From Candidatus Cloacimonadota bacterium (lineage in GTDB: Bacteria; Cloacimonadota; Cloacimonadia; Cloacimonadales; TCS61): a stretch of 60,244 nucleotides of DNA. Position numbers and translations under genes: made by a program. The stretch lies in NCBI GenBank assembly GCA_021735645.1, contig JAIPGP010000010.1, forward strand, positions 1 through 60,244. Reading direction: 5' to 3'. The notes under the pieces are model-generated. The model saw only the letters and a list, made by a program, of their open reading frames with translations. It did no database searches and had not been told where the DNA came from. Of this stretch, positions 27,368 to 56,201 are shown piece by piece. Position 1 is the first letter of the stretch. Every line of letters begins with the position of its first letter.

Positions 27368-27801
27368 ATGTAATGTGAGGCTTATTTAATTTGGTATGCG
27401 TGAGTTAGAGTTTGATTTCAGGAGGATATTGTGATGAAGCGGAGTATAGTCATTTTAGTTGTATTTTTTAGTGTATTATTATCTAATGCTGCGGGGATAG
27501 AGTATTGCAGGTCATTTGACTATCCGCAGGTTAGTAATAAGGCTCAGGGGATGGTAATAGAATACGAAGATTGTCTTTTGAGTGGGGCAGAAGGAGAGCC
27601 TTATCTTCCCTGGCAAGGGATCAGTCTGCTATTACCGCAAAATGAATGTATAGAGACTATCTCGCTGAAATCTGTAGAATATTATGACAAAGAAGAACAG
27701 GGCTGTATAGCACCTGCCGGAAGGCAGTTTTTTATATCACAACCAGGCCCGGCAGATTATCAGCCGGTTCCTGATCCTGAGATATATGAGAAGGATGCAG
27801 T
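27368..27801. repeat. Leader/N-terminus block, copy 1
   Basis: This stretch covers the leader and roughly the first 125 codons of the C25 gene and is about 95% identical to 31938-32371 (offset 4570). Identity drops sharply at about 27802, where the two genes diverge. Confidence 0.8.
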
Positions 27802-30800
27802 ATTTCCGGCAAGTTGTCTGAGTGATTTTTCGACTGGTTTTCTATGCGGTCACAGTATCGGCAGTTTCAGGTTCTGCCCGGTGGAATACAATCCAGTGCA
27901 GGGGAGTTTGCGGTTTATTAAAAGCATTGAGCTTGAGATCAAGACGCAGGCAGTGGATAATGCAGAAGAACTTTCTGCGAATCTAAGAAGTACAAAGAAG
28001 GTGCAGGAACGGATTGAGATGATAGTAGAGAATCCAGAGGTATTTAACCGGTATAGTGAAACCAGCTTCCGACCCGATGATTATGATATACTTCTTATCA
28101 CAATAGGTTATTTGACCGATGAATTTGCTGAATATGTGGAATTCAAGGAATCAACGGGCTACAAAGTAGCAGTGGTAACTACAGGATATATCCAGTGGAA
28201 TTATCCAGGAGATGATGATGCTGATATGGTGCGGAACTGCATAATAGATTATTACCAGAATCATGGCATAGAATATGTGATACTGGGAGGAGATGCTGGT
28301 AATCCCAATGAGGAAGCAATCGTTCCTGCCCGTTATTTATTTGCTGAAAATCTCTTTATACCTTCTGATATGTATTACAGTAATCTGGATGGAGCCTGGA
28401 ATATAGATAATGATTATTATTATGGTGAGGCTGGTGAGGTGGACCCATATTCTGAAGTATCTATTGGTAGAATGTGTGTGGATTTGAGTATGGAAGCAGT
28501 AAATAGTATTAATAAGCATATCCTGTATCAGAATTCACCAGTAATAGAAGATATTGACAAAGTAGTGATGGCGGGAGAGTATTATGGTGGCTCAGTCTGG
28601 GGAGGAGACTACCTTGATCAGATTGTAAGTGGAGGTTACTTCAATGGTTATGCAACAACCGGAATATCAGGCAATATGAATATTAATTACCATTATGACC
28701 GTGATATGTTCTGGAGCAAATACGATTTGTTTGAAGAATTCTCAGAGAATGGACTCAATCTTATAATTCATGCAGGACACAGCAATACAGACTATAACAT
28801 GAAGATGTATAACTATGATCTTACCGAAGAAAATTTTACAAATGACGGAACAACAAGGGGGCTTGGAATTGGTTATTCACAAGGGTGTTATAATGGTGCT
28901 TTTGATAATTGTACTCCGGAAGAAATCATTGATGACTGTTTTGCGGAAAAGATAACGGGCGATATAACAGGCGGATTTGTAGCCTGTATAGCTAATTCGC
29001 GATATGGAACTTATGATGGTCATGGAACAAACAGTTCTACCCAGTTTCTTAGCCGTAAGTTCGTTGAAGGGATTTTTGGAGAAGAGATTTATAATATAGG
29101 GGATGCAAACACATATTCCCATGAAGCCGCAGCCGGTTTGATCGATGGTGATGAGTTAATGAAAATGGTATGTTATGGGACAAATTTATTTGGTGATCCT
29201 TCTCTGGATATATGGACGGCAGAGCCGGAAGATATAATTGCCACCTTGCCATTATTTGTGCCTTTGGGGGCAAGCCAGATCAGCATTCAGACAAGTATAG
29301 CCGGAGCCCGGGTGGCAATATTGCAGGATGGTTTGTTACTGGGTAGAGGGCTAACCAGAGCCAGTGGTATATTGAATCTTGAATTAGATCTGCCAGTAGA
29401 TAGTACTGCATATTTGGCTGTTTCGATTATCAGGCATAACTATAATCGTTATGAAGCAGAAATTGAGGTAGTTGCCAATCAACCTTATGTGATCTATCAG
29501 AGTCATTCTCTGGACGAATTATCAGGAAATGGCGATGGATTAGCAGATTACGGAGAGACAATTATACTCGATATGGAATTGAGTAATATTGGCATGGAAG
29601 ATGCAGATAATACAACTATCAATTTAACAACAGAAGATGAATTCATCAGTATAATTGATGGAGAAGAAAGCATTGGGCATTTTCCGGCAGAAACAATTAT
29701 CGAGATATTAGATGCTGTGAGTTTCTCTATTCAGGACAATGTGCCAGATCAGCATACAGCCGTATTTATGGTAACGGTTACAGGAGATACACAGGAGTGG
29801 TTATCTTTTTTTGAGATAGTGGTAAATGCTCCAGCCCTGCAGTATGGGGGAATTTCCATAGATGACAGTATTGAAGGGAATGAAAATGGAATTCTTGAGC
29901 CGGGAGAAACAGCCGCAATAAGCTTGGAAATACTCAATACCGGGCACAGTAATTCGCCATTTGCCAGTTTGGAATTATCTTCTGACAATCCAGAAATAAT
30001 AGTAATAGAAGACAGTGTGGAATTGGGAATAATAGCAGCAGACAGCTGTGGGACAGGAATCTTTACTGTTTCAGCAGGAGAAGATATAGAAATAGGTACA
30101 TCAGCGGGACTAACTCTATTTTGCCAGGCAGATAATTATACCTTTGAAGAAGAAATCCGCGAGTCAGTAGGTTTGATCATAGAGGATTTTGAAAGTGGTA
30201 ATTTTTCTACTTATGAATGGGAATCAGGTGGAGATGCAGCTTGGACGATAGAGACCTCGACAGTGTTTGAGGGCACTTACAGTATAAGATCAGGAGCTAT
30301 AGGTAACTTAGAAAACAGTATTCTGACTCTTTATGCAGCGGTACGATATAATAGTGAAATCAGTTTCATGTATCAAGTGTCATCTGATGCTAATAATGAT
30401 TGGCTCTTTTTTTGTATCGATGGTGTGGAGCAGTTTTCTATTTCTGGTGAGGTCGAGTGGTCAGAGGCACGGGTTCCAATCACCCGGGGAGTGCATATAC
30501 TGGAATGGCGCTATAGCAAGAATGGTAATGTAGCCAGTGGAGAAGATTGTGCCTGGCTGGATTATATAATATTCCCGCAGTTCAGAACACCTGAAGCACC
30601 GGCTTTGTCACTTGAAGCAGATGAAATACAGATGACCGTGGAAGAGCATGATACAGTAACCTCGCTGTTTAATATATCTAATGCTGGTGATGAGACTCTG
30701 CTGTGGCAGGTAAATAAATACTATCCTGATAGCCGTGGATCTGGTGGACCAGACGAATATGGATATGCCTGGATGGATAATAATGAATATAGTGAGATAG

Positions 30801-31828
30801 AATTTAACTGGATAGATATTTCCAGTACAGGAGTCGCTGTGGATTTTATTGATGAGAACACATCCACTGAGCTGATACCGATAGGATTTCCTTTTTATTT
30901 CTATGGTGAAGAATATGAAGAATTCAGGATCAATCCTAATGGCTGGATCGGTTTTGGTGAAGATAATACCGAGTCGGTGAATACTTCTTTGCCAAACAGT
31001 GATGCACCATGTCCGGCAATATTGCCGTTTTGGGATGACCTGCATCCGTTCATAGAAAATGAAGGTGGGGGAGTGGTGTATTATCAGGTTTATGATGGTC
31101 ATTTGGTGGTGATGTTTGATGATGTGTTCCATTTTTCGGGAAATAATGAAGGGACATACTCATTTGAAGTGATCATCTGGGTTGATGGGACGATAAAAAT
31201 GCAGTACAATACTTTGGTCGGTGATCTAGATTCATGTACAGTCGGTATCCAGAACTCTAATTTCAGTATAGGTTTGCCGGTAGTATTCAATGATACATAT
31301 CTGGAAGAGGGACTGGCAATTGAAATTAAAAAGATAGATGACTGGCTGGAGATATCTCCGCTCAGCGGAGAAATCAGTTATGGCGGGTCTCGGAATCTGG
31401 AGTTAATATTTGATACCGGGAACTTAGCGATTGGTGAATACCACTGTAACATGATCATTTGCACTAATGCTCCGGGACAGGAAGAAGTTATTGTCCCGAT
31501 AACTCTAACAATCGTGGAATCGGATACATTTGATAATAATTTGATCTACCCCACAAGTTGCCTGCATTGCAATTATCCCAATCCCTTTAATCCCTGCACA
31601 ACTATAAGCTATCAATTGGCAGAGGACACCGATGTAGAGCTGATGATATATAACATTAAAGGGCAGCATATTATCACGCTGGTGAATGGCTTGCAAGAGT
31701 CTGGAGAGCATTCTGTAGAGTGGCAGGGACTGGATAAGAAAGGTAATCAAATTTCCAGCGGTATTTATCTTTACAGATTGAGTGCAGGAAGCACCTCATT
31801 AGCCAGAAAGATGATATTATTGAAATAG
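27434..31828 (+). CDS. C25 (gingipain-like) cysteine peptidase with sorting domain, copy 1
   Basis: About 1464 residues. AGGAGG is 8 nt before ATG 27434 (a GTG directly upstream is an alternative). Layout: signal peptide 1-21; propeptide-like domain to about 200; peptidase C25 about 215-600, with the likely catalytic pair His450 (IIHAGHSN) and Cys486 (SQGCYNGAFD); CARDB-like Ig domains about 670-900; a MAM-like domain about 915-1050 ('IIEDFESGNFSTYEW', 'CAWLDYIIFP'); a nidogen-like beta domain about 1090-1300 ('INPNGWIGFGEDN', 'ILPFWDDLHP'); a BACON-like Ig domain; and a sorting module (YPNPFNPCTTISY, ending MILLK). It is probably an exported, surface-attached protease. Genes of the same family follow downstream. 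Confidence 0.9.
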   Translation: MKRSIVILVVFFSVLLSNAAGIEYCRSFDYPQVSNKAQGMVIEYEDCLLSGAEGEPYLPWQGISLLLPQNECIETISLKSVEYYDKEEQGCIAPAGRQFFISQPGPADYQPVPDPEIYEKDAVFPASCLSDFSTGFLCGHSIGSFRFCPVEYNPVQGSLRFIKSIELEIKTQAVDNAEELSANLRSTKKVQERIEMIVENPEVFNRYSETSFRPDDYDILLITIGYLTDEFAEYVEFKESTGYKVAVVTTGYIQWNYPGDDDADMVRNCIIDYYQNHGIEYVILGGDAGNPNEEAIVPARYLFAENLFIPSDMYYSNLDGAWNIDNDYYYGEAGEVDPYSEVSIGRMCVDLSMEAVNSINKHILYQNSPVIEDIDKVVMAGEYYGGSVWGGDYLDQIVSGGYFNGYATTGISGNMNINYHYDRDMFWSKYDLFEEFSENGLNLIIHAGHSNTDYNMKMYNYDLTEENFTNDGTTRGLGIGYSQGCYNGAFDNCTPEEIIDDCFAEKITGDITGGFVACIANSRYGTYDGHGTNSSTQFLSRKFVEGIFGEEIYNIGDANTYSHEAAAGLIDGDELMKMVCYGTNLFGDPSLDIWTAEPEDIIATLPLFVPLGASQISIQTSIAGARVAILQDGLLLGRGLTRASGILNLELDLPVDSTAYLAVSIIRHNYNRYEAEIEVVANQPYVIYQSHSLDELSGNGDGLADYGETIILDMELSNIGMEDADNTTINLTTEDEFISIIDGEESIGHFPAETIIEILDAVSFSIQDNVPDQHTAVFMVTVTGDTQEWLSFFEIVVNAPALQYGGISIDDSIEGNENGILEPGETAAISLEILNTGHSNSPFASLELSSDNPEIIVIEDSVELGIIAADSCGTGIFTVSAGEDIEIGTSAGLTLFCQADNYTFEEEIRESVGLIIEDFESGNFSTYEWESGGDAAWTIETSTVFEGTYSIRSGAIGNLENSILTLYAAVRYNSEISFMYQVSSDANNDWLFFCIDGVEQFSISGEVEWSEARVPITRGVHILEWRYSKNGNVASGEDCAWLDYIIFPQFRTPEAPALSLEADEIQMTVEEHDTVTSLFNISNAGDETLLWQVNKYYPDSRGSGGPDEYGYAWMDNNEYSEIEFNWIDISSTGVAVDFIDENTSTELIPIGFPFYFYGEEYEEFRINPNGWIGFGEDNTESVNTSLPNSDAPCPAILPFWDDLHPFIENEGGGVVYYQVYDGHLVVMFDDVFHFSGNNEGTYSFEVIIWVDGTIKMQYNTLVGDLDSCTVGIQNSNFSIGLPVVFNDTYLEEGLAIEIKKIDDWLEISPLSGEISYGGSRNLELIFDTGNLAIGEYHCNMIICTNAPGQEEVIVPITLTIVESDTFDNNLIYPTSCLHCNYPNPFNPCTTISYQLAEDTDVELMIYNIKGQHIITLVNGLQESGEHSVEWQGLDKKGNQISSGIYLYRLSAGSTSLARKMILLK

Positions 31829-31935
31829 AGAGGGGGGGGGGGAGTAATTGAAAATTGAAAATGTAAAATGTAAAATTGAATGTAATGTAATTTAAGATGA
31901 TTAGCCACGGAACACACTGAACACACGGAATAATG
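31829..31935. repeat. G11 homopolymer followed by low-complexity words
   Basis: Three bases after the stop codon a run of 11 G (31832-31842) is followed by 'AATTGAAAATTG', 'AATGTAAAATGTAAAAT', 'GAATGTAATGTAAT' and 'CACGGAA' words. No gene. The copy-2 leader block begins right after it. Confidence 0.7.
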
Positions 31936-31937
31936 TA

Positions 31938-32371
31938 ATGTAATGTGGGGCTTATTTAATTTGGTATGCGTGAGTTAGAGTTTGATTTCAGGAGGATATT
32001 GTGATGAAGCAAAGTATAGTCATTTTAGTTGTATTTTTTAGTGTATTATTATCTAATGCTGCGGGGATAGAGTTTTGCAGGTCATTTGACTATCCGGAGG
32101 TTAGTAATAAGGCTCAGGGGATGGTGATAGAATACGAAGATTGTCTTTTGAGTGGGGCAGAAGGAGAGCCTTATCTTCCCTGGCAGGGGATCAGTCTGCT
32201 ATTACCGCAAAATGAATGTATAGAGACTATAACGCTGAAATCTGTAGAATATTATGACAAAGAAGAGCGGGGCGATATTGCACCAGCCGGCAGGCAGTTT
32301 TTTATATCACAACCAGGCCCGGCAGATTATCAGCCGGTTCCTGATCCTGAGATATATGAGAAGGATGCAAA
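31938..32371. repeat. Leader/N-terminus block, copy 2
   Basis: Partner of 27368-27801. It contains the same ribosome site and start (GTGATGAAGC) and the same first 125 codons with about 5% changes. Confidence 0.8.
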
Positions 32372-35300
32372 ATTCCCTATAAGTTGTCTGAGTGGCTATA
32401 CTACAGGTTATTTATGTGGTCACAGCATAGGCAGTATGAGGATTTGTCCGGTGGAATATAATCCTATAAAGCAGACTGTGCGCTTTATAAAAAGCATTGA
32501 GCTTGAGATCAAAACGGAGTCTGTTGCCAATGTAATGAAACTCATGGCTAATTTAAGGAGTAGAAAAAAGGTGGAGGAACGGATCGAGAGGATAGTAGAG
32601 AATTCGGAAGCTTTAGCGGGGTATAGTTATCGTGAGGATTATAGAACGGGGGATTGTGATCTGCTGATAATCACCAGCACTGTTTTTGGAGAGAATTTTG
32701 CTGAATACATTAACTACAAAGAATCCACAGGTTATATGACAAGTCTGAAATATGTAGAAGATATTTATAATGAATATAGTGGGATAGATGAAGCTGAGCA
32801 GGTACGTAATTGTATAATTGACTACTATCAGAATAATAATCTTGAATATGTGCTCTTAGGTGGGGATGCGGGTAATATTTATGAAGAAGCCATTGTGCCG
32901 CATCGGGAAATGATGTTGTATTCACTGCCATCAGATGTTTATTATTCCAATCTGGATGGAACTTTTTATGATGAGGAAAGTGGGGATTGGGGCAATTATG
33001 GGGATATGGATATGTATTCTGAGATTGCTGTGGGCAGGTGGTGTGTGGATTGTGCGAATGAGATCACTATTATGAGCACAAAACATATAAATTATCAGAA
33101 TGAGCCGGTAATAAATGATATCTGCAAGGGGTTAATGGTAGGGGAGCAGCTTGATGAGTGGACATGGGGTGGAGACTATAAACATGAAATTGCAACTGGC
33201 GGATATTTCAATGGTTATGAGACAGCAGGATTCCCTGCTTATTACAGTATTACTGAATTATATGAAAGTCTGGGCGGATTTGAAAATGTGGATATTTTTA
33301 ATGAGTTTTCCAATCTTGGAACTCATTTGGTGAATCATTTGGGTCATTCAAACCCGACCTATAACATGAAGGTGAATAATAGCGACCTGGTAGAGGAGAA
33401 TTTCACTAATAACGGTATTACCAGAGGATTAGCAATTGGCTATTCACAAGGCTGTTATAATGGTTCTTTTGATAATTATCATTTCAATGGATACTACACA
33501 GAAGATTGTTTTGCTGAGAAAATGACAGGCGGGATCAGTGGTGGAGAAGTTGCCTGCATTGCCAATTCCCGTTCTGGTTATTACTCGTATGGCAACACAG
33601 ACGGAGCATCTCAGTATTATGACCGTATGTTTTTTGATGGATTGTTTGGTGAGGATATTACGAAAATCGGTGAGATTAACAGTTTTTCACATGAAGCTGA
33701 TGTGAGTCAATTGGAAATATTTGTGCTGAGAGAGATATTTTATGAAACGAATTTATTCGGAGACCCCAGCCTGGACATCTGGACGGAAGAGCCTTTGGTG
33801 ATGAATGTGATACTGCCCGAAAGTGCAAATCAGGGAGACACGGAGATCAATATTGAAACTGGAGTGGAAGGTGCCAGAGCAGCATTGCTTTCTGAGGGAG
33901 AGTTATTAGCACGAGGTATCACAAATATAGAGGGTGATCTTACTCTGAACGTGCCAGAGGGTATAGCTTCTCCATATCCGCTTCAGGTATCTGTAATAGC
34001 CCATAATTATCAGAGATATACCGGTGAAATAGAAGTTTTAACGCCGTCAGCATACGTGGTTTATCAAGCTTGTGCTATTCATGACGAGACTGGTAACAAT
34101 AATAATGCCATAGATTTTGGCGAGACGATAAGCCTTGATCTGGCAGTAATTAATGGAGGTGATGAAGAAGCAGGAGCCTGCAGTTTTGTACTTAATAGCC
34201 TATCCGATGCGGTAACACTCATTGATTATCAGGAAACTTCGGGTGCAATAGGAGCTGGCGAGATAGAGGAATTGGAGCTGGCATTCAGTTTTATGGTAAG
34301 TGATGCAGCAGCGGATAGCCAGCAATTAGAATTCACACTTACAGTGAGTAGTGAGGGAGAGGAATGGGAATCAGGATTTACGCAGGAGGTACTCGCACCT
34401 GAACTGGTATATGAAAGCTTTAGCATTGATGACAGCATTCAGGGGAATAATAATGGCATGTTAGACCCGGGTGAGGGGGTGGAACTTCATTTGCAAATAG
34501 GCAATAATGGACACAGCACAGCACCTGCAGGAGTGGCAAATCTATCAAGCTATAATCCCAATATAACAATTGATGACCTTGATGTAGCATTTACAGAGAT
34601 CATCCCAAATGGAAACACAGAACTGTTATTTAGTGTGATAGCCTCTGATGGTCTGGAAATAGGCTCAGAAGTGGACTTTTACCTGAACTGTCAGGCAGGT
34701 AACTACAATCTGGAACACGTTTTCAGCTCTACCTCCGGTTTGATAATGGAAGATTTTGAATCAGCAGATTTCAGTATGTTTAATTGGGAATTTCCTGATG
34801 ATGTAGATTGGGAAATAGATACTTTGGCTTATGAAGGAGAATATTCTGCCTGCTGCGGTGAAACAGAACAGCAGGATGCCAGTACATTATCACTGGATTG
34901 TGATGTGATGTTCGATAGTGAAATTGTATTCTGCTGCAAAGTGTCATGTTATAGATTTGCGGACTATTTGATCTTCAAGATAGACGATGAAGAAATCTGG
35001 CAATGGACTGGCGAAGTGCCCTGGGTGGAGGTGAGTTTCCCGGTAACGCAGGGTCATCACACCTTTGAATGGAGCTATGAAAAACAAGCCAATGATATTG
35101 GTGGAGCTAACCGTGTGTGGCTGGATAATATCAGGTTTCCTGCCCTGGGAATCCCTGGAACTGCAGAACTTGTATTTGATCAGGAGCAGATTTCAATTAC
35201 TGCTGAGCAGGGTGGAACAGGGTCAGCAAATCTGACACTAATTAATCAGGGAGAAGAAAATCTGCATTGGGAAGGTAGTAAATACTACCTGGATAGCCGT

Positions 35301-36392
35301 GCCTGGGGTGGACCTGATGGCTACGGCTATGTCTGGATGGATAGTAATGAATATAATGAGATAGAATTTGACTGGATTGATATCTCCGGTACAGGGACGG
35401 CAGTAAGTTTTACTGATAATGATACATCTACTGAGCTGCTGTCTTTGGGTTTTACTTTTAATTTTTATGGTGAAGATTATGCAGAATTCAGGATCAATCC
35501 TAATGGCTGGATAGGTTTTGGTGAAGATAATACGGAGTGGTCAAATACGTCTTTGCCAAACAGGGATGCACCATGTCCGGCAATATTACCGTTTTGGGAC
35601 GATCTGTATCCTCTGATAGAGAATGAGGGCGGAGGAGTAGTTTATTATCAGAATTTTGAGGATCATCTGGTAGTGATGTTTGATGATGTGATGCACTTTT
35701 CCGGTAATTATAACGGCACTTATGCTTTTGAAGTTATCATCTGGGCGGATGGCAGAATAAAAATGCAATACCACGACCTGGAGGGAGATATAGACACCTG
35801 CACAATTGGGCTTCAAAGTTCAGATTTTCAGGAAGGTTTGCTGGTAGTTTATAATGATACCTATCTGGAAGAAAGTCTGGCAATTGAAGTTAATAAAGTG
35901 GTTGACTGGATGAATTTCACTCCCGAATGTGGAGAAATTCTAAATTATGAATCACAGAATATACAGATCAGTGCCAATGCAGACAGTCTTTCCATTGGTG
36001 AATATTGCTGCAATCTAATAATTCATTCTAATGATCCTGAACAGGCAGAAGTTATAATACCAGTGATACTTACGGTGATAGAATCAGATATTGGTGCCGG
36101 TGATGAAATAATCTCGACCAGTTGCTTGAATTGCAATTATCCCAATCCCTTTAATCCCACTACAACAATAGAATACCAGATAGCTGAAAAGGGTCTTGTA
36201 CATCTGGATATCTATAATATTAAGGGGCAGCATGTTACAACGCTTGTGTCTGAAATTCAGGAATCCGGTAAACATTCAGTTATCTGGCAGGGTAGAGATG
36301 ATAAAGGTAATCAGCTTGCCAGTGGTATTTATCTAACTAGATTGAGGGCAGGGAGGCATTCATCTACCCGTAAGATGATTTTGCTGAAATAG
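32004..36392 (+). CDS. C25 (gingipain-like) cysteine peptidase with sorting domain, copy 2
   Basis: About 1462 residues with the same order of parts as the gene before it: signal peptide, propeptide-like region, peptidase C25 with His in VNHLGHSNPTYN (near 450) and Cys in SQGCYNGSFD (near 485), CARDB-like domains, a MAM-like domain ('IMEDFESADFSMFNWEF'), a nidogen-like domain ('INPNGWIGFGEDNTEWSN'), a BACON-like domain and a sorting module (YPNPFNPTTTIEYQ, ending MILLK). Its first part is nearly identical to copy 1 and its last 84 codons are nearly identical to the beta-helix gene that follows, so it is a mosaic of both neighbours. The next gene starts 69 bp on, so cotranscription is likely. 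Confidence 0.9.
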   Translation: MKQSIVILVVFFSVLLSNAAGIEFCRSFDYPEVSNKAQGMVIEYEDCLLSGAEGEPYLPWQGISLLLPQNECIETITLKSVEYYDKEERGDIAPAGRQFFISQPGPADYQPVPDPEIYEKDAKFPISCLSGYTTGYLCGHSIGSMRICPVEYNPIKQTVRFIKSIELEIKTESVANVMKLMANLRSRKKVEERIERIVENSEALAGYSYREDYRTGDCDLLIITSTVFGENFAEYINYKESTGYMTSLKYVEDIYNEYSGIDEAEQVRNCIIDYYQNNNLEYVLLGGDAGNIYEEAIVPHREMMLYSLPSDVYYSNLDGTFYDEESGDWGNYGDMDMYSEIAVGRWCVDCANEITIMSTKHINYQNEPVINDICKGLMVGEQLDEWTWGGDYKHEIATGGYFNGYETAGFPAYYSITELYESLGGFENVDIFNEFSNLGTHLVNHLGHSNPTYNMKVNNSDLVEENFTNNGITRGLAIGYSQGCYNGSFDNYHFNGYYTEDCFAEKMTGGISGGEVACIANSRSGYYSYGNTDGASQYYDRMFFDGLFGEDITKIGEINSFSHEADVSQLEIFVLREIFYETNLFGDPSLDIWTEEPLVMNVILPESANQGDTEINIETGVEGARAALLSEGELLARGITNIEGDLTLNVPEGIASPYPLQVSVIAHNYQRYTGEIEVLTPSAYVVYQACAIHDETGNNNNAIDFGETISLDLAVINGGDEEAGACSFVLNSLSDAVTLIDYQETSGAIGAGEIEELELAFSFMVSDAAADSQQLEFTLTVSSEGEEWESGFTQEVLAPELVYESFSIDDSIQGNNNGMLDPGEGVELHLQIGNNGHSTAPAGVANLSSYNPNITIDDLDVAFTEIIPNGNTELLFSVIASDGLEIGSEVDFYLNCQAGNYNLEHVFSSTSGLIMEDFESADFSMFNWEFPDDVDWEIDTLAYEGEYSACCGETEQQDASTLSLDCDVMFDSEIVFCCKVSCYRFADYLIFKIDDEEIWQWTGEVPWVEVSFPVTQGHHTFEWSYEKQANDIGGANRVWLDNIRFPALGIPGTAELVFDQEQISITAEQGGTGSANLTLINQGEENLHWEGSKYYLDSRAWGGPDGYGYVWMDSNEYNEIEFDWIDISGTGTAVSFTDNDTSTELLSLGFTFNFYGEDYAEFRINPNGWIGFGEDNTEWSNTSLPNRDAPCPAILPFWDDLYPLIENEGGGVVYYQNFEDHLVVMFDDVMHFSGNYNGTYAFEVIIWADGRIKMQYHDLEGDIDTCTIGLQSSDFQEGLLVVYNDTYLEESLAIEVNKVVDWMNFTPECGEILNYESQNIQISANADSLSIGEYCCNLIIHSNDPEQAEVIIPVILTVIESDIGAGDEIISTSCLNCNYPNPFNPTTTIEYQIAEKGLVHLDIYNIKGQHVTTLVSEIQESGKHSVIWQGRDDKGNQLASGIYLTRLRAGRHSSTRKMILLK

Positions 36393-36404
36393 TGAGAAGG
36401 TGGG
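36139..36404. repeat. Sorting-domain block, copy 1
   Basis: 266 bp coding the sorting module plus 12 bp past the stop codon. It matches 38731-38996 with three mismatches (offset 2592). Confidence 0.92.
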
Positions 36405-36461
36405 ATGTGATTTTAGATATTTGGCGAAGGAAATATTATTAAGCAAATTACAGGAGGAAGC

Positions 36462-38984: not shown

Positions 38985-38996
38985 TGAGAAGGTGGG
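38731..38996. repeat. Sorting-domain block, copy 2
   Basis: Partner of 36139-36404, 98.9% identical although the rest of the two genes is unrelated. The identity runs through the stop codon into 'TGAGAAGGTGGG'. Confidence 0.92.
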
Positions 38997-44208: not shown

Positions 44209-44226
44209 AATTTATTTGGAGGATTG

Positions 44227-47200: not shown

Positions 47201-49587
47201 TTATGAACTGGCATCTGCCGGAAGCCCATGGTCCCAGTCCCATGATCGCTGCTTTCTGGGATGATTTACACAATGGCAGCTCTGGGCATGTTTATACATA
47301 TTTCAATACAAACCTGCACTATTATGTGATAGAGTGGGATCATTTCCAGAATGAGAATTCAAATGAAGAAGAAACTTTCCAGATTATTCTTTATGACGCA
47401 AATTATTATCCTACCAGTACAATGGACAGCATGATCAAAATTCAGTACAAAGTTTTTAATAATACCAATAGTGGTTCATATAGAGCAGACCATGGTCAGT
47501 TCTGTACCGTTGGGCTGGAAGACCCTTCTGGTCTGGTCGGTCTGGAATATACTTTCAATAATGCTTATCCTACTGCAGCTCGAACTCTTACGAATCAAAG
47601 TGCTATTCTCTTTTCCACTATGCCAATTCCTCCTGATGGTCCATTCCTCACTATTGGCGGGATGGAACTTGATGATGAAAATGGAAATGGTAATGCAGAT
47701 TATGGTGAAAATGTTTATTTCGATCTAATAGTTAATAATGTAGGCTCAGAAATCGCTCATAATGTTTCAGTAAATCTGGAAACTGAAGATAGCTGGATAA
47801 ATATAATCAATAACAGCAGCAGTTACCCTGATATTCAGAGTGGTGTAATGGAAGCAAACAATCAGCCATTTTTCCTGACTGTAGATGGCAATGTTCCAGA
47901 TGGGCATATGGCAGCGATTACTGCTACTATCTCATGCAATGAAGGCGAATGGCAGATTATCACTGAGCTGGAACTTAATGCCCCTGACTTGAACTTTTTT
48001 GAATTCTTTGTAAATGATGGCGTTGATAATATCCTTGATTCCGGTGAAACATCTGATGTTTTGGTCCGTTTCTTCAATAGTGGTGGAGCTCCTGTTTACG
48101 ATGCTCAAATTACCCTCGCTACTGCGGATAATTATCTTAATATCAATAATAATGATTTTAATCCTGGTGATATTCCCGGCGAGGCATTCTCTACCGGGAT
48201 ATTTAGTTTCTCTGCTGCTGCGAATGCTCCCACAGGACACCAGGCTACTATCAATTGGAGTTTAATTGCCGGACAGGATTATGCTGTGTCTGGAACTTTT
48301 ATCTTTGTTATCAGTCAGGTTCCTGTTTTGATTGATGAAGATTTCTCTGGCAATTTCCCGCCTGACGGCTGGTTTATTGACGGACAGAACTGGGAAAGTG
48401 GATCAAGTAGTTATGCTGGTGGCTCTGCTCCTGAAGCAAAATTTAACTGGAGTCCTTCAGTTAACGGTGATCAAAGACTGGTTTGTGGTCCTTTTTCCAC
48501 TTCCGGCTCCAGTGAATTAGACATCTCTTTCCGCCAGAATGTTAATCACTTCAGCGGAACATATGAATTGAAGCTGGAAACTTCTTCTAATGGCTCTACC
48601 TGGCAGCAGGCTGCAAGCTGGCCCCCTCAAAACCAGGGTGCTACCATTAGTTATGTAAATATCAATACTTCAGATGTTGGCTCACCCACTTTCTATTTCG
48701 CCTTCACTTTCTCTGGTTATTCCTATAACATTAATTACTGGTACATTGATGATGTGGAGATTGAAGGTGTGAGCGTGGAACCCTTGGGTTATATTGAAGG
48801 TATGGTGGGTATTGGTGGTGCTGGTAACGTGCAGAATGTGAGTATAGAAGTGGGTGACCAGATCGTCCATCCTAATTCTGCCGGTAATTATACGGTTATC
48901 CTCTCACCGGGAACTTATACTCTTACTGCTACTTTGCCTGGCTACGATGATTTTGTGGCAACTGATATTCTGGTAACTCAAACCCAGACTACCCAGCAGA
49001 ATATCATTCTGGGCTTTATACCTTCTCCGGAAAACCTGAGTGCTATTGCTCAGGAAGATGGCGTAATGCTTTCATGGCAGCTCAGTTCTCAGGAAATCAG
49101 CCGTGATATTGAGTATTATAACATTTATGCAGATTTTAATGGCGATGGCTATCAACTGGCTGGCACAGCTGCTGAAATGTCTTTCCTTCACACTCCCTAT
49201 CTGCCGGGTAATTATCATTATTATGTGACTGCGTATTACACGGAAAGCGGAGAAACACTGCCCTCCAATGACGCTTACAGCTGGTATAATGGTGAAGTAC
49301 ATTTTGGTGATATCAATGAAAGCTCCGTTGTGGATGCTTATGATACTGCTCTTCTACTGCAATATTTCGTCGGCTTTGACCCGCTGCCAGAGCTTGATCC
49401 TGCTCCCTGGGAAAACTGGAGACTCTATCTGGGTGATGTTGATGATAATGGCAATATGGAAGCCTTTGATGCTTCCCTGATCCTGCAATACATTGTGGGG
49501 CTCATTGATCAGTTCCCCTGCGAACCTGCTCCAGTCGTTACCCGAAAAGTTAATCGCAATCTAAATTCTCAATCTGCTAAAGATTAA
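44227..49587 (+). CDS. Large C25-like protein ending in dockerin-like pair (copy 1)
   Basis: 1786 residues. GGAGG 4 nt before GTG 44227 supports this start, and the paralog at 50835 begins with the same GTG-AAG. Parts: signal peptide 1-20; propeptide-like region to about 200; C25-like domain about 233-560 with Cys about 465 (LTCGTGGF), but YRGF at 434-437 where the GH of the catalytic His motif stands in the other C25 genes; Ig/CARDB-like domains; a nidogen-like domain about 910-1140 ('GTAGWIAPGGTQIRSFMNW', 'MIAAFWDDLHNG'); a MAM-like domain about 1380-1525; a regulatory-like unit; FN3; and a final dockerin-like pair from about 1690 (GDINESSVVDAYDT, GDVDDNGNMEAFDA). No sorting module follows. 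It starts 18 bp after the previous gene and ends at a strong terminator. Confidence 0.9.
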   Translation: MKKSIVLVIMVLGLVSLQAGWVSIQTAEGELFNCESSNRSVTELVFQLDGYEMETIAKAGTEYLQISHPEEGDLLEIGKPDLPVFTTLVAISGQGTPQVSYEVLNSSFLRDVNIYPRQALQLESEPYRDVFTYDEEYYAAGNTFPETEVFMGEPAVMRDVRLVPVTICPFRWNPVSRELTISTEFSVQVSMTPEAGINELTHDSNISRAFEPFYKGQIINYSMTETRDEFQQPSILFIHTNNTQVTTSLAYLTDWKHERGYEVHTASTTQTGTSSTSIKNYIQNAYDSWTNPPEYVVLVGDVGGTYNIPTWTNTWGSYGGEGDQPYSQLAGGDVLADIIVGRLPFGNITELQTMIAKSINYEKQPYIASPDWMETITLVGDPSASGPSTISTCRYVQEVTQAYNPDFSYNEIFSGSYSSQMSSALNAGTLYFCYRGFIGMSGFDTGNINALYNGWMLPFATILTCGTGGFAGTCRSEVFARAGSPTNPKGAVAAVGTATSGTHTCFNNCVTAGMYEGIFNLDIFSTGGALVNGKYNLYLNYPQNPSHYVNIFSHWNNLMGDPSVSLYTGIPQEMNVEYPATVGSGASFLPVVVTDASGNGIENAWVTILKGNDDIFASGYTDASGNIWLSLAEDETGDVTITVTAHDRLSYQDEFTIAAQNVQLNPRETAIDDDNNGSSSGNNNGIINNGETIELDIMVNNSGSQTATGITGAIDCHEPWVEIITAEADYPNIAGGATLSSLSSYVISIDAAAVNCPSFLIEVTVSTGTQEFYSIIELAVSAPSLSFSDYDISGVNGVIDPGETGILTVDLENLGDVSTGQLTGLLASEDNFIQIDDPNGSYNSILPGNTGTNSTNDFELTIHSAAIPGTLLPLSLILSNTDGFQQTIFFNIEVGTVTVNDPLGPDAYGYLCYDDQDSDYIECPSYNWIEINPSLGGNGSLVNISTGGDDCDIETLSFPGNFTFNFYGEHYTNFTVGTAGWIAPGGTQIRSFMNWHLPEAHGPSPMIAAFWDDLHNGSSGHVYTYFNTNLHYYVIEWDHFQNENSNEEETFQIILYDANYYPTSTMDSMIKIQYKVFNNTNSGSYRADHGQFCTVGLEDPSGLVGLEYTFNNAYPTAARTLTNQSAILFSTMPIPPDGPFLTIGGMELDDENGNGNADYGENVYFDLIVNNVGSEIAHNVSVNLETEDSWINIINNSSSYPDIQSGVMEANNQPFFLTVDGNVPDGHMAAITATISCNEGEWQIITELELNAPDLNFFEFFVNDGVDNILDSGETSDVLVRFFNSGGAPVYDAQITLATADNYLNINNNDFNPGDIPGEAFSTGIFSFSAAANAPTGHQATINWSLIAGQDYAVSGTFIFVISQVPVLIDEDFSGNFPPDGWFIDGQNWESGSSSYAGGSAPEAKFNWSPSVNGDQRLVCGPFSTSGSSELDISFRQNVNHFSGTYELKLETSSNGSTWQQAASWPPQNQGATISYVNINTSDVGSPTFYFAFTFSGYSYNINYWYIDDVEIEGVSVEPLGYIEGMVGIGGAGNVQNVSIEVGDQIVHPNSAGNYTVILSPGTYTLTATLPGYDDFVATDILVTQTQTTQQNIILGFIPSPENLSAIAQEDGVMLSWQLSSQEISRDIEYYNIYADFNGDGYQLAGTAAEMSFLHTPYLPGNYHYYVTAYYTESGETLPSNDAYSWYNGEVHFGDINESSVVDAYDTALLLQYFVGFDPLPELDPAPWENWRLYLGDVDDNGNMEAFDASLILQYIVGLIDQFPCEPAPVVTRKVNRNLNSQSAKD

Positions 49588-49605
49588 TAGTATAGTAAAA
49601 AAAAA

Positions 49606-49639
49606 CAGCTGCTGGAATATCCAGCAGCTGGTTTTTTTC
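49606..49639. terminator. Rho-independent terminator (bidirectional) after the first large C25-like gene
   Basis: CAGCTGCTGG-AATAT-CCAGCAGCTG is a 10-bp perfect stem followed by GTTTTTTT. An A run (49597-49605) before it lets it work on the minus strand too. Confidence 0.92.
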
Positions 49640-49892
49640 TAATATTTCCGAGTTGTATACAACTCATTTTTGTTTTTTCTTGATTCAATTCGGCTAATGC
49701 GGTTACAAGCCTTTGCTCTACTTCTTCTCTATAATTCAAGAGTATGTTACTGAAATGCCTTTTTTTGATATGATGCCAGATGCACTCTACAGGATTTAGT
49801 TCCGGTGCCTCTGGTGGTAAAAACGGTGGTTTGATGTTTTGTATGCCAAACATTGATTGGGCTGAGTACCAACTAGCGTTATCCATTTCCAT
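49640..49892 (-). pseudogene. IS630-family transposase remnant (C-terminal DDE part)
   Basis: A fragment of about 100 residues with the end of a DDE_3 domain. MDNASW carries the second catalytic Asp, and PELNPVECIWHHIKK carries the Glu. The first part of the transposase, including the first Asp, is missing, and the frame runs on through the terminator at 49606-49639 to a stop at 49584. It is therefore a dead relic. It lies next to an IS110 relic between two paralogous genes. Confidence 0.8.
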
Positions 49893-49924
49893 GATAATTC
49901 TATTTTGACTATAGTGTTCACTTA

Positions 49925-50545
49925 GTTTTTTCTAGGAAAATTGACATTGAATTCCAGATAGAATTCTTTACAAATGAAATTACCCAAAATGTTGTCAGCA
50001 GTGACCTGTAAAGATTTTAAGTTTGTCTTGCCTTCTTTAATCGCTTAATTATCAATACATCTCTTAGGTAATTGAAAGACACAATTATTTGTTAATGGAT
50101 TCTAAAATTAGGATGCGATTGGTTTTGAATAAGATTTTCACGGTGCCTCATCAAGTAAGGAAAATCCGAATAGTATGTTCAGGAATAGATGAATTAGTGG
50201 GCAAACCTTATGAGAGTAGTTCTTGAATCCAGGCAAAGTCAAGATCGTCAGTTCTCTGACGACCTGGAAGATTATTAGCTTGATTTGAATTGCATAGAAA
50301 ACTTCAAAACCATATTTCCATAAGTTATATAGGGTTATCCAGTAAACTCCGGTTGATTCCATACAAACTGATTCTAACTTACGATTTTTAAGATAATTGC
50401 ATATTTCAATTAAATTGGTAGTAAAAGTAGAAAATTTACGAATATTATTGGAAACTAAATGAGGTGCAACAACCACCGAGTGGAGAGGGAAACAAATGTA
50501 TATACCGGCAGAATAGGGATTCATGATGGTGAGACCAATAAAACG
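49925..50545 (-). pseudogene. IS110-family transposase remnant, frameshifted
   Basis: On the minus strand the family signature MESTGVYW is clear (near 50340), preceded by 'VRKFSTF'-like sequence (IRKFSTFTTNL) and 'NPYSAGIYI', where the first DEDD Asp (GID) has become Tyr. After 'YGFEVF' the frame shifts: another frame continues as 'NLPGRQRTDDLDFAWIQELL' (the usual NVPGRK.D..D..WLQ segment), then 'RHRENLIQNQSH', and further down 'AIKEGKTNLKSLQVTADN'. Stops and shifts between these blocks make it non-functional. The ends of the IS were not found. Confidence 0.8.
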
Positions 50546-50598
50546 CGATTTTTCTTGACGGACTTGCAGCTCTTTTCTTCTTTTTTAATGTTGTTTTC

Positions 50599-50643
50599 CT
50601 TTGCGTATTTTGTGATTTGGTAAATAAAAAAAAATACGCAAAG
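50599..50643. repeat. 13-bp perfect inverted repeat
   Basis: CTTTGCGTATTTT (50599-50611) and AAAATACGCAAAG (50631-50643) are separated by 19 nt. It may be an IS end pair, a regulatory site or a hairpin. It lies between the IS110 relic and the leader of the next gene. Confidence 0.6.
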
Positions 50644-50777
50644 CTTTCTGTAATTATTTTAAATTCATGCAAGGATTTGCATAAGATGAAAAAATATTAT
50701 GACTTATAGCACTCAGTTATCAGTCTAAATTGTTTCGTCTTTTTTTAATTGCGAAGTATGAATAATGCTAACTCAAT

Positions 50778-50811
50778 AGCTTAGCTCAACTGAAAGCTTA
50801 GCTTATAAAAT
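50778..50811 (+). promoter_or_regulatory. Candidate promoter region with AGCTTAGCT direct repeat
   Basis: AGCTTAGCT occurs at 50778-50786 and 50795-50803 (17-bp period) and is followed by TATAAAAT (50804-50811), a possible -10, 24 bp before GTG 50835. No good -35 was seen; the repeat could be an activator site. Confidence 0.35.
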
Positions 50812-50834
50812 AAATTTAAAGAAACGGAGGTTTA

Positions 50835-53800
50835 GTGAAAAAAATATTTCTTATCCTGATAGTGCTGATGATCTGGAGTCTGCAGGCAGAATGGATAAGT
50901 CTGCAGAATAGTGACAGCAATACATTTAATTGTGAGAATTCTGATCGTAATAATACAGAATTGAGTTTTCAACTTAATGGTTATGAAATAGAAACTATAA
51001 CAAAAGCCGGGGAGAAATATCTGCAGATTTCACATCCAGGTGAAGGCGATCTGCTGCAGATAGGGAAACCCGATCTGCCAGTTTTTACCACGTTAGTGGC
51101 AATCAGCGGGACTGGTACACCTCAATTGTGTTATCAAGTACTGAATAATTCCATATTATCAGATGTGATGATATTTCCACGCCAGGAATTACGGCTTGAA
51201 AGTGAACCTGCAAGAGATGAATTCAAACGTGATGAACAGTATTATACCAGTGGAAGTATTTTTCCTGAAGCATCAGCTTTTCTGGGAGAGCCGGCAATTA
51301 TGCGGGATATAAGGCTTGTGCCAGTAACTGTGTGTCCATTCACCTGGGATCCTGTCAGCCGTGAATTGACAATTGTCAGTGAATTTACTCTGCAGGTAAG
51401 TATGACTTCTGAGCCGGGAATCAATGAACTGAATGATGATAATTATATCTCTCGAGCTTTTGAACTTTTCTATAAGGGTAATATTATAAATTATGAAGTT
51501 TCTGAAACAAGAGATGAGTTTCAGCAGCCATCAATCCTTTTTATTCACACAAATAATACCCAGGTGACTTCGGCACTGTCATATCTAACAACCTGGAAAC
51601 ATGAGCGTGGTTATGAAGTGCATACAGCGAGTACAACTCAAGCAGGAACGTCTAATATTGCCATAAAAAATTATATCCAATCTGCTTACAATAACTGGGA
51701 AAACCCTCCCGAATATGTTGTTTTAGTAGGTGATGCAGGCGGTTCTTATAATATTCCTACCTGGATCGATACCTGGAGCTCTTATAATGGAGAAGGAGAC
51801 CAGCCCTATAGTCAGTTAGCCGGTGAAGATGTTCTGGCAGATATTATTGTGGGTAGAATGCCCTTTGAAAATATTACTGAACTGCAGACTATGATTGCAA
51901 AATCTATCAATTATGAGAAACAGCCCTATGTGACAAATCCGGGTTGGATGGAGACGATCACTTTAGTTGGAGATTCCAGTTCGTCAGGTCCTTCCACTAT
52001 TTCCACCTGTCGATATGTGCAGGAAGTCACTCTGGCATATAATCCGGACTTTAGCTATAATGAGATTTTCAGCGGTAGTTATTCTTCTCAGATGAGCAGT
52101 GCTTTAAATGGAGGAACTCTATATTTCTGTTATAGAGGATTTATCGGAATGAGTGGTTTTAATATTATCAGTATAACTTCACTTAATAATGGGTGGATGC
52201 TGCCCTTTGTCACGATCTTGACCTGTGGAACTGGTGGCTTTCTTGAGACCTGTCGGAGTGAAGTATTTGCCAGAGCTGGATCAATTACAAATCCTAAAGG
52301 AGCTATCGCTTCTGTTGGGACAGCTACTACTGGAACCCATACCTGCTTTAATAATTGTGTAACTGCCGGGATGTATGAAGGTATTTTTAATCTTGATATA
52401 TTCTCTCCAGGTGGTGCTCTGGTTAATGGTAAATATAATTTATATATGAATTATCCCCAGAATCCCAGTAATTATGTAAATATGTTCTCGCACTGGAATA
52501 ATCTGATGGGAGACCCCAGCGTAAGTTTATATACCGGTATTCCTCAGGCAATAAATGTGGAATATCCCTTAATAGTTGGATTAGGGGCATTAAATATTCC
52601 TGTAACAGTAACAGATGCTCAGGGGACTGGTATAGAAAATGCCTGGGTTACTATACTTAAGGGTGGAGATGAAATATTTGCTACGGGATACACTAATGCC
52701 GCAGGAGATATTTGGCTGCCTATTCCTGAAGCTGAATCAGGAGATGTTATTATAACAGTAACTGCCCATGATTATCTCTCTTTTCAGGATGAATTCACTA
52801 TAGCAGCTCAGAACGTGCAGTTAAATCCTCGCGATTATGATATTGATGATGATAATTTTGGTTCATCAATTGGAAATGGAAATAGCATTATAAATAATGG
52901 TGAGACTATAGAACTTGATATTCTCGTAAATAATTCAGGGTCACAAGCTGCTTCTGGAGTGACTGGTATTATCAATTGCCCTGAACCATGGATTACAATA
53001 ACAACCCCGGAAGTTAGTTATCCTGATATTAATGCCGGAGAGGAACTTGCTCCATTGAGCAGTTTTATATTGAATATCGATCCCGCTGTTATTGGTGGTT
53101 CAGTTTTTCAATTGGAAGTAACTATCAGCAGCGGAACTCAGGAATTCAATGGGATATTGGACTTAACTGTTGCTGCTCCCCTTCTCTCGTTTAATAGTTA
53201 TACTCTAAGTGGAATAAGTGGAATTATTAATCCTGGGGAGACTGCAGGAATTACGGTTGAAATTGAAAATCTTGGTGATATTGCCACAGGTTCATTGACC
53301 GCATTACTTTCCAGTAATGATTCCTTTATTGAAATTGATGATGCCAATGGTTCTTACAACAATATTTTGCCGGGTAATTCTGCAGTCAATTTGGGTAATT
53401 TTTTTGAAATTACTTTAAGCTCTTTTGCAATTCCGGGAACATTGATTCCCTTTTTAATGACTTTATCCAATTCAGAGGGATTTGTGCAAACCATATTATT
53501 TAATCTGGAAGTAGGTATTGTGACAGGAAATGATCCATTGGGCCCCGATGCTTATGGCTATCTTGCCTATGATGATCAGGATGATGGATATCTTGCATGC
53601 CCGACATATAACTGGATAGAAATAAATCCCTTCCTCGGTGGTAATGGCACACAAGTAGGGATTTCAACTGGTGGAGATGATTGTGATATTGAAGATGTTT
53701 CTTTCCCCGATTCGTTCACATTTAATTATTACGGAGAGCAATACACTATGTTCACAGTCGGAACTGCCGGCTGGATAGCTCCTGGTGGTACGCAGATCAG

Positions 53801-56201
53801 GTCTTTCATGAACTGGCATGTCCCTGAAGCCCATGGACCAAGTCCAATGATAGCTGCTTTCTGGGATGATATTCATAATGGATATTTAGGTCATGTTTAT
53901 ACCTACTATGATCCCGGTATGCACTATTATGTTATTGAATGGGATCATTTCCAGAATGAATATAATAATGCCGAGGAAACCTTCCAGATCATCCTTTATG
54001 ACGCAAATTATTATCCCACCAGTACCATGGATAGTAAAATAAAGATCCAGTATAAAGTATTTAATAATGTCAATCAAGGCTCCTATAGAGCAGATCATGG
54101 ACAGTATTGCACTGTGGGTCTTGAAGATCATACCGGGATGATTGGACTGGAATACACTTTTGATAACAGCTATCCAACGGCTGCCAGAACAATTACTGAT
54201 GAGAGTGCTATCTTATTTACTACTATGCCTATTCCTCCTGATGGACCAATTTTAACAATGAGTAATATTGAGCTTGATGATGAAAATGGCAATGGAGCTG
54301 CAGATTATGGTGAAAATATCTATTTTGATCTGCTGATCAGTAATGTTGGTTCTGAAATAGCCCATAACGTCTCTGTGAATTTATCTACGATAGATACCTG
54401 GATTGATCTGATAGATGACAGCAGTGCCTATCCTGATATAGAAGCTGGCACAATAGAGTCAAATAACCAGGCATTTTATCTCACTGTAGATAGTGAAGTT
54501 CCTGATGGGCATCTGGCTTCCATAAATGTGATTATCTCTTCAAATGAAAGCGCCTGGGAGCTCATTACCGAGATAGAACTTAATGCTCCTCTTGTCAGCT
54601 ATTATAATTATTTAGTAAATGATGGCATTGATAATATTCTGGATGCAGGGGAAACCGCTGATGTCCTGATAAGTTTTGCTAATACTGGAGGAGCACCTGT
54701 TTATGATTCCCAATTCACTCTTTCTACTAATGATGCCTATCTGGATATCAATAATGATACCTATGGTCCGGGTAATATCAATAGCGAAAGTATAATCATG
54801 GGGATCTTTGGATTTACCGCTTCCTCAGGCTCAACAATGAGCCATTCATGCACAGTGCACTGGGTTTTGAATGCGGGGCAGGATTATTCCGTAAGTGGAG
54901 ATTTCATCTTTGTTATCAGTCAGGTTCCTGTGCTTATCAATGAGGATTTTTCTGGTACTTTCCCACCAGACGGCTGGTATATTGACGGACAGAACTGGGA
55001 GAGTGGATCAAGTAATAATGCTGGTGGCTCTGCTCCTGAGGCAAAATTTATCTGGAGTCCCTCAGTTAACGGTGATCAAAGACTGATTTGCGGTCCTTTT
55101 TCCACTTCCGGCTCCAGTGAAATAGACCTTTCTTTCTGCCAGAATGTAAATCATTACAGTGGTATTTATACTCTAGCGCTTGAAACATCCTCAAATGGCA
55201 ACAACTGGCAGCAGACTGCGACCTGGCCACCTCAAAATCAGAGTGCTACTATCAGCAATGTAAATATTTATAATTCGGATGTTGGCTCGCCTACTTTTTA
55301 TTTTGCATTCACCTTCTCTGGAAATTCATCTAACATTAACTACTGGTACATCGACAATGTCGAGATTGATGAACCCAGTTTGTTACTACTGGGTTATATT
55401 CAAGGAATCGTGAGCATTGGTGGCACTGGCAATATGCAGGATGTGATGATCGAAGTTGATGATCAGATTGCTCAACCAAACTCATTAGGCGAATATACCT
55501 TGATCCTTGAGCCAGGAACTTATGATCTTACAGCTACTCTGCCCGGCTATGAAGATTTTATAGTTACTGATATTCAGATTATACAAACGCAGACAACTAA
55601 TCAGAATATCATGCTGGGTTTTATCCCTTCGCCGGATGGTCTTATTTCGGTGGCTTCTGAAGATGGAGTTTTACTAAACTGGGAGCTTAGCTCTCAGGAG
55701 ATCAGCCATGATATTCGTGATATCGAGTATTATAACATTTATGCTAATTTTAATGGTGATGGCTATCAACTGGCTGGTACATCTGCTGAAATGTGTTTCC
55801 TCCATACTCCCTATCTGCCTGGTAATTATCATTATTATGTGACAGCGTATTACACGGAAAGCGGAGAAACGCTGCCCTCCAATGAAGCTTCCAGCTGGTA
55901 TGATGGCGAAGTATACTTTGGTGATATTAATGAAAGCACAGTTGTTGATGCTTATGATACTGCTCTTTTACTGCAATATTTCGTTGGCTTAGACCCGTTG
56001 CCGGTGATTGATCCCGTTCCCTGGGAAAACTGGAGACTCTATCTGGGTGATGTTGATGATAATGGCAATATGGAAGCCTTTGATGCTTCCCTGATCCTGC
56101 AATATATCGTAGGTATCATTGACCGTTTCCCCTGCGAACCAGCTCCTGTTGTAAGCCGAAAAATTAATAACAACCTGAATAAAAATTCCAGTCTGGACTA
56201 A
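50835..56201 (+). CDS. Large C25-like protein ending in dockerin-like pair (copy 2)
   Basis: 1788 residues, full-length paralog of the gene at 44227 with the same module order: signal peptide (MKKIFLILIVLMIWSLQA), propeptide-like region, C25-like domain (LTCGTGGFLETC keeps the Cys; YRGFIGMSGF again lacks the GH motif), Ig/CARDB-like domains, nidogen-like domain, MAM-like domain ('LINEDFSGTFPPDGWYIDGQ'), regulatory-like unit, FN3, and a terminal dockerin-like pair (GDINESTVVDAYDT, GDVDDNGNMEAFDA). No sorting module. The start is GTG 50835 with GGAGG 5 nt upstream. Some stretches, e.g. the last dockerin repeat (near 56030-56100), are nearly identical in DNA to copy 1 while others have drifted. 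It is transcribed separately and ends at a strong terminator. Confidence 0.9.
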   Translation: MKKIFLILIVLMIWSLQAEWISLQNSDSNTFNCENSDRNNTELSFQLNGYEIETITKAGEKYLQISHPGEGDLLQIGKPDLPVFTTLVAISGTGTPQLCYQVLNNSILSDVMIFPRQELRLESEPARDEFKRDEQYYTSGSIFPEASAFLGEPAIMRDIRLVPVTVCPFTWDPVSRELTIVSEFTLQVSMTSEPGINELNDDNYISRAFELFYKGNIINYEVSETRDEFQQPSILFIHTNNTQVTSALSYLTTWKHERGYEVHTASTTQAGTSNIAIKNYIQSAYNNWENPPEYVVLVGDAGGSYNIPTWIDTWSSYNGEGDQPYSQLAGEDVLADIIVGRMPFENITELQTMIAKSINYEKQPYVTNPGWMETITLVGDSSSSGPSTISTCRYVQEVTLAYNPDFSYNEIFSGSYSSQMSSALNGGTLYFCYRGFIGMSGFNIISITSLNNGWMLPFVTILTCGTGGFLETCRSEVFARAGSITNPKGAIASVGTATTGTHTCFNNCVTAGMYEGIFNLDIFSPGGALVNGKYNLYMNYPQNPSNYVNMFSHWNNLMGDPSVSLYTGIPQAINVEYPLIVGLGALNIPVTVTDAQGTGIENAWVTILKGGDEIFATGYTNAAGDIWLPIPEAESGDVIITVTAHDYLSFQDEFTIAAQNVQLNPRDYDIDDDNFGSSIGNGNSIINNGETIELDILVNNSGSQAASGVTGIINCPEPWITITTPEVSYPDINAGEELAPLSSFILNIDPAVIGGSVFQLEVTISSGTQEFNGILDLTVAAPLLSFNSYTLSGISGIINPGETAGITVEIENLGDIATGSLTALLSSNDSFIEIDDANGSYNNILPGNSAVNLGNFFEITLSSFAIPGTLIPFLMTLSNSEGFVQTILFNLEVGIVTGNDPLGPDAYGYLAYDDQDDGYLACPTYNWIEINPFLGGNGTQVGISTGGDDCDIEDVSFPDSFTFNYYGEQYTMFTVGTAGWIAPGGTQIRSFMNWHVPEAHGPSPMIAAFWDDIHNGYLGHVYTYYDPGMHYYVIEWDHFQNEYNNAEETFQIILYDANYYPTSTMDSKIKIQYKVFNNVNQGSYRADHGQYCTVGLEDHTGMIGLEYTFDNSYPTAARTITDESAILFTTMPIPPDGPILTMSNIELDDENGNGAADYGENIYFDLLISNVGSEIAHNVSVNLSTIDTWIDLIDDSSAYPDIEAGTIESNNQAFYLTVDSEVPDGHLASINVIISSNESAWELITEIELNAPLVSYYNYLVNDGIDNILDAGETADVLISFANTGGAPVYDSQFTLSTNDAYLDINNDTYGPGNINSESIIMGIFGFTASSGSTMSHSCTVHWVLNAGQDYSVSGDFIFVISQVPVLINEDFSGTFPPDGWYIDGQNWESGSSNNAGGSAPEAKFIWSPSVNGDQRLICGPFSTSGSSEIDLSFCQNVNHYSGIYTLALETSSNGNNWQQTATWPPQNQSATISNVNIYNSDVGSPTFYFAFTFSGNSSNINYWYIDNVEIDEPSLLLLGYIQGIVSIGGTGNMQDVMIEVDDQIAQPNSLGEYTLILEPGTYDLTATLPGYEDFIVTDIQIIQTQTTNQNIMLGFIPSPDGLISVASEDGVLLNWELSSQEISHDIRDIEYYNIYANFNGDGYQLAGTSAEMCFLHTPYLPGNYHYYVTAYYTESGETLPSNEASSWYDGEVYFGDINESTVVDAYDTALLLQYFVGLDPLPVIDPVPWENWRLYLGDVDDNGNMEAFDASLILQYIVGIIDRFPCEPAPVVSRKINNNLNKNSSLD

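Follow-up and report, generated by a model that had tools for sequence, protein, structure and literature searches.

The window analysed here, a contig (C111) of 60,244 nucleotides from a Candidatus Cloacimonadota MAG (genome of 3.77 Mb, about 95% complete), contains an array of five C25-domain genes, named A to E, on the forward strand (27431-56201). The first-pass annotation had described five neighbouring proteins of this family, and the open reading frames were found as claimed, each with a match to the Pfam model Peptidase_C25 (A, 5.8e-42; B, 5.4e-49; C, 3.6e-51; D, 5e-49; E, 7.6e-49). Gene A (27431-31828) encodes a C25 peptidase of 1465 aa with a propeptide, a C25_C Ig domain and a C-terminal T9SS sorting domain, and gene B (32001-36392) a C25 peptidase of 1463 aa that ends in a T9SS sorting domain as well. 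A sixth protein within the array, M (36462-38984, forward strand), is a beta-helix protein (Chlam_PMP/DUF1565) which carries a sorting domain and no C25 domain. The ends of B (36139-36392) and M (38731-38984) are 98-99% identical over about 254 bp, a segment that spans the sorting domain. Since this last segment is common to B and the unrelated M, such tails evidently move between genes, and the shared ends point to recent tail copying.

The three remaining genes of the array, all on the forward strand, encode dockerins. In C (39226-44208), for which a signal peptide was obtained with the start at 39226, the C25 peptidase is followed by a dockerin (43336-43527), a beta domain with a predicted cohesin fold of nine strands (43564-43908) and a T9SS sorting domain (43966-44205). 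The same succession ends the 2547-residue protein L on the reverse strand (11329-18972), in which MAM-like and carboxypeptidase-regulatory repeats precede the dockerin (11944-12123), the beta domain (11572-11900) and the T9SS sorting domain (11341-11571). D (44224-49587) and its paralogue E (50835-56201; 75% identical, with the same architecture) are C25-like proteins that end in a dockerin (49306-49494 and 55920-56108, respectively). The Pfam models Por_Secre_tail and FlgD_ig matched the C-termini of A, B and C and were absent from D and E, which thus lack the C-terminal sorting domain expected of T9SS cargo. These results bear out the earlier description of three sorted C25 proteins, of two with a terminal dockerin and no such module, and of a beta domain between dockerin and sorting module in C and L. 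We refer to the architecture of D and E as class 1 and to that of C and L, in which about 100-150 aa separate dockerin and sorting domain, as class 2.

The Pfam model Dockerin_1 matched residues 1449-1512 of C, 1695-1757 of D, 1696-1758 of E and 2284-2343 of L. Taken per protein, the score of D (24.2 bits) lies above the gathering cut-off of 22.9, and those of C (20.1), E (19.2) and L (20.5) fall slightly below it. With a dockerin profile built from the genome itself all four were unambiguous (E-values of 1e-25 to 1e-30), although this profile was iterated on the same genome and C, D, E and L are therefore not all independent of it. Profile and conservation agree with type I dockerins, with two calcium-loop/helix repeats and conserved Asp residues. 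A search with the organism's own cohesin profile found no cohesin gene inside the window.

Ends and catalytic residues of D and E

It is exceedingly improbable that D and E lost a sorting domain through truncation or mis-assembly. Close homologues elsewhere do end in sorting domains, as such a loss would require, but both paralogues share the same end after the dockerin with an orthologue in another genome (L029), which contradicts truncation at the sequence level, and 19 other proteins of the genome end likewise. No residual sorting, cohesin or dockerin module was seen in the DNA 3' of D and E, and truncated sorting domains downstream of the two genes were rejected on this basis. The gap between D and E (49588-50834) comprises 1.25 kb of AT-rich DNA (33% GC) without a recognised module.

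The catalytic His and Cys are kept in A, B and C. In D and E the His is replaced by Phe and the Cys is kept (YRGF motif; 44953-45924 and 51555-52529 of the window). The relatives of D in public genomes are almost all from Candidatus Cloacimonadota. Most members of the D family have an aromatic residue at this position, so that the change is a trait of the family, which would be inactive or atypical. D and E are thus possibly inactive or atypical proteases, and the term protease array was overstated for these two. Among the five dockerin-ended C25 proteins of the genome, one (on contig C35) has both His and Cys. D aligned to gingipain R with an E-value of 2e-17; a phmmer search with the catalytic domain of C against the PDB gave no match at 0.001. 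PorU, the C25 sortase of the T9SS, was considered for A to E and rejected, as NCBIfam NF033707 scored at most 77 bits against a cut-off of 420.

Dockerins, cohesins and secretion genes in the genome

The profile search for cohesins that the first-pass annotation had proposed was carried out on the whole genome and recovered 21 cohesins with Pfam and 35 with the organism's own profile. They are mostly arranged in arrays within long proteins, mostly with a sorting domain at the end (8 on contig C43, 5 on C110, at least 9 on C98, 2 on C69 and 1+1 on C130). Dockerins numbered 32 by Pfam and more than 35 in all, and dockerin and cohesin genes adjoin on C110, C98, C130 and C128. Class 1 comprises 21 proteins, D and E included, with a terminal dockerin but no sorting domain, and the short tail after this dockerin often reads FPVE; the class includes five C25 proteins, three M14 carboxypeptidases, a PAD, GH18, GH57 and CotH proteins and others. 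At least 15 proteins, including C and L, form class 2, in which beta domain and sorting domain come after the same motif. Given these numbers in both classes, chance can be excluded as the origin of the arrangement. The genome therefore holds what is found in cellulosome-like systems, namely scaffold proteins with tandem cohesins and enzymes with C-terminal dockerins. The locus L010:3-15494 has an open reading frame for over 5,000 aa with nine divergent cohesins at regular spacing.

The T9SS translocon protein SprA was detected (449 bits against a cut-off of 200), and together with the sorting domains on the scaffolds it predicts, from sequence, an anchoring at the cell. A cluster with secretin, PilB, PilT, PilC, PilM and PilO lies on contig C3. 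GspD and GspG scored 170 and 47 bits against cut-offs of 351 and 89, and a type II secretion system is unlikely as export route, as the components found were pilus-like only and below the T2SS cut-offs.

Across the phylum, Pfam dockerins were detected in 70 of 125 genomes, few of which have more than five. The dockerin-rich genomes are also cohesin-rich (Pfam dockerins/own-profile cohesins: G000 32/35, G088 39/34, G089 33/22, G083 45/35, G060 31/15). The counts do not always match: G092 has 21 Pfam dockerins and only 2 cohesins, and G117 has 24 and only 6.

Exchange of dockerins and sorting domains

Dockerins take the place of sorting domains on homologous enzymes, namely in the C25 family of D, in PAD and in GH18 proteins and, less cleanly, in M14 carboxypeptidases. 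At about 17 loci of the D family in the phylum a sorting domain stands at the position of the dockerin of D and E; homology to D extends to about residue 1682 of the query and is followed by the sorting domain, and the dockerin of D starts at residue 1695. The tree of this family indicates one to three module changes, with one long-branch row, and its resolution does not suffice for counting or dating the exchanges. Of the PAD homologues, 23 carry a terminal sorting domain and 5 a terminal dockerin; all of the dockerin forms come from dockerin-rich genomes (G000, G088, G089, G083 and G092). The GH18 homologues divide into three with a sorting domain and four with a dockerin. For M14 the picture is less clear (12 sorting, 3 dockerin, 14 neither), and both modules are missing from the closest homologues.

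The dockerin-ended PAD belongs to an operon conserved in four genomes (L015:7726-10924, L065, L066 and L067), in which genes for PAD-dockerin, a solo cohesin (162-175 aa) and a cohesin-sorting protein (260-363 aa) follow one another in this order, each with a signal peptide as judged by eye. Elsewhere in the phylum the sorting domain is located on the PAD itself. The occurrence as one chain in some genomes and as an adjacent docking pair in others argues, in the manner of a gene fusion, for a joint function of the two partners.

The beta domain of C and L

Neither Pfam nor the organism's own cohesin HMM matched the beta domain of C and L directly, and a first, small HHalign comparison with cohesins gave a probability of 19% only. 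A deeper comparison with 70 cohesins, from which intermediates were left out, reached an E-value of 1.8e-5 (78%) and a score of 30.8, as opposed to at most 16.0 for the controls (30 column-shuffled profiles as well as reversed and unrelated ones); with the intermediates included the E-value was 1.7e-7 (94%). L047 (6e-29), L146 (8e-21) and L093 (2e-13) have a canonical cohesin, and L063 (1e-9) a clear one, at the position of the beta domain, behind the dockerin and ahead of the sorting domain. The AF2 model of dockerin and beta domain of C (pLDDT 90.8, pTM 0.83) has nine strands, as in the cohesin sandwich, a fold for which other beta sandwiches score similarly in Foldseek. The best PDB matches of the model in Foldseek included the cohesins 2jh2, 6kg8, 2vo8 and 2xdh, next to dockerins; the cohesins had probabilities of 0.99-1.00 and TMt values of up to 0.58, with weak E-values of 3.6e-3 or higher and unrelated sandwiches nearby. 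The intermediate L047 gave 74 matches at E-values of 0.001 or below, and nearly all of those listed were cohesins. Profile comparison, intermediates and predicted fold agree that this domain is probably a shortened, degenerate relative of the cohesins.

The model further suggests that this domain packs on the dockerin of its own chain. The pTM of 0.83 is too high for unrelated orientations of domains of 65 and 115 residues, and the packing was read from this value. At the recognition positions, dockerins of class 1 and class 2 differ in small ways that are not decisive. The earlier proposal that dockerins bind the cohesin-like beta domains was therefore probably right about the relationship, but the domains are degenerate and appear to pack on their own dockerin. 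A cohesin-like fold was predicted for the beta domains, and cohesins were recovered from the genome; the absence from both, which the first-pass annotation had named as evidence against a complex, does not apply.

Discussion

We consider it rather probable that dockerin, cohesin and T9SS modules are combined into three modes of surface display. In the direct mode the enzyme itself would bear the sorting domain, as A and B do. In a two-part mode a dockerin-ended enzyme such as D or E would bind a cohesin on a separate protein that bears the sorting domain (a small cohesin-sorting adaptor or one of the long scaffolds); the partners of D and E would be the bona fide cohesins encoded elsewhere in the genome. 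In a fused mode, represented by C and L, dockerin, shrunken cohesin and sorting domain would form a single chain, in which the dockerin would rest on the cohesin next to it and make a fixed, closed joint. Since the beta domains appear degenerate and packed in cis and cohesins occur elsewhere, the two alternatives of the first-pass annotation fit different classes: a cellulosome-like degradation complex agrees with about 35 cohesins and dockerin-ended enzymes and suits D and E, not C and L, for which a dockerin pair that stabilises its own chain is the better account. From the modules, their numbers, the exchanges and the operon, all directly observed, we infer that dockerins and cohesins bind each other in this organism and that the complex is located at the surface. 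Cargo and cohesin probably reach the same surface complex, and dockerin-only proteins could stay in the periplasm.

How class 1 proteins would cross the outer membrane may be explained in several ways. The CTD targets cargo to the T9SS, with a CTD-less reporter as control (PMC10994853). In the two-part mode, a dockerin in the place of the sorting domain would mean that the cargo obtains its T9SS signal in trans, and it is conceivable, though we hold it only tentatively, that CTD-less cargo binds a periplasmic cohesin-CTD carrier, that both cross the translocon together and that the dockerin-cohesin-CTD proteins are fused relics of such pairs. Assembly only outside the cell, where surface cohesins would catch enzymes that exit by vesicles, by lysis or through a pilus-like or type II-like system, as in Gram-positive cellulosomes, seems somewhat less likely still. 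Complete cohesin-sorting scaffolds are available for it, and the secretin/Pil cluster on C3 is the sole other outer-membrane pore found, but this cluster resembles a type IV pilus in its PilM and PilT-like genes, with GspD and GspG below their cut-offs, and the finding that dockerins and sorting domains replace each other on homologues links the dockerin to the T9SS rather than to another route.

Other explanations concern the dockerins themselves. If the dockerins of C and L were free to bind scaffold cohesins, both proteins would be adaptors with two surface contacts, through dockerin and sorting domain. The sequence pattern that class 2 shares with class 1 would permit this, yet the linker to the beta domain is short and ordered, the two-domain model is confident as a single unit and class 2 is somewhat more variable at several recognition positions, which makes free dockerins on C and L unlikely. 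It is more improbable again that all dockerins are structural only, each closing on a neighbour in its own chain without any intermolecular complex. The confident model of C with its ordered linker is in line with such a role, and L047 may pack alike (pTM 0.75); against it stand the 21 proteins whose terminal dockerin is not followed by a cohesin-like domain, the cohesins in other chains, and the calcium-loop Asp residues in both classes, with class 1 at least as conserved at the recognition positions.

The general idea of a dockerin/cohesin complex with C25 cargo is not new for this phylum. For Ca. Stygibacter, also of the Cloacimonadota, the published account describes C-terminal dockerins on GH18, GH57, S8/S53 and C25 proteins as well as a 3,755-aa scaffoldin with tandem cohesins and a CTD, and proposes a cellulosome-like surface complex for the degradation of polypeptides and polysaccharides (Williams et al. 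2021; PMC8542988). Dockerin enzymes, CTD scaffoldin and the notion of a degradation complex are common to both systems, and the window's genome and Ca. Stygibacter may belong to the same genus. An open frame of 3779 aa with many cohesins on contig C10 of G088 is close in length to the scaffoldin, which might point to the same group of organisms. The passages found in this paper do not discuss how dockerin enzymes without a CTD cross the outer membrane, nor do they mention an exchange of dockerin and sorting domain, an operon of PAD, cohesin and cohesin-sorting protein or a dockerin-cohesin-sorting fusion (PMC8542988). In the open-access literature we found no report of the exchange, with no paper on a dockerin that replaces a CTD, of the PAD operon or of the shrunken-cohesin beta domain of C and L. 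Searches for T9SS cargo that is exported jointly with a partner, or piggyback, found no pertinent paper.

With the cellulosomes of Clostridia and Ruminococcus the present system has type I dockerins and arrays of cohesins in common, and its scaffold is predicted to be anchored as theirs is; unlike these, it belongs to a Gram-negative envelope, with predicted anchoring by the T9SS and mainly peptidases. C and L recall X-dockerin modules, in which a structural domain lies beside the dockerin, but here the partner domain would be a shrunken cohesin and is C-terminal to the dockerin. A, B and C have Propeptide_C25, C25, C25_C and sorting domain in common with gingipains (RgpB, T9SS type A cargo), from which D and E differ by the lack of the sorting domain and of the catalytic His. 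Cohesin and dockerin modules reportedly also occur outside classical cellulosomes, as reviewed by Peer et al. in 2009; in contrast to those, numbers and arrays are here at cellulosome scale.

If this interpretation is right, cellulosome docking and type IX secretion would be joined into one modular system of display that uses a docking tag instead of the secretion tail. Lists of T9SS cargo that are based on such tails would then overlook a class of proteins, and the testable question would arise whether the T9SS exports a folded partner bound to its cargo.
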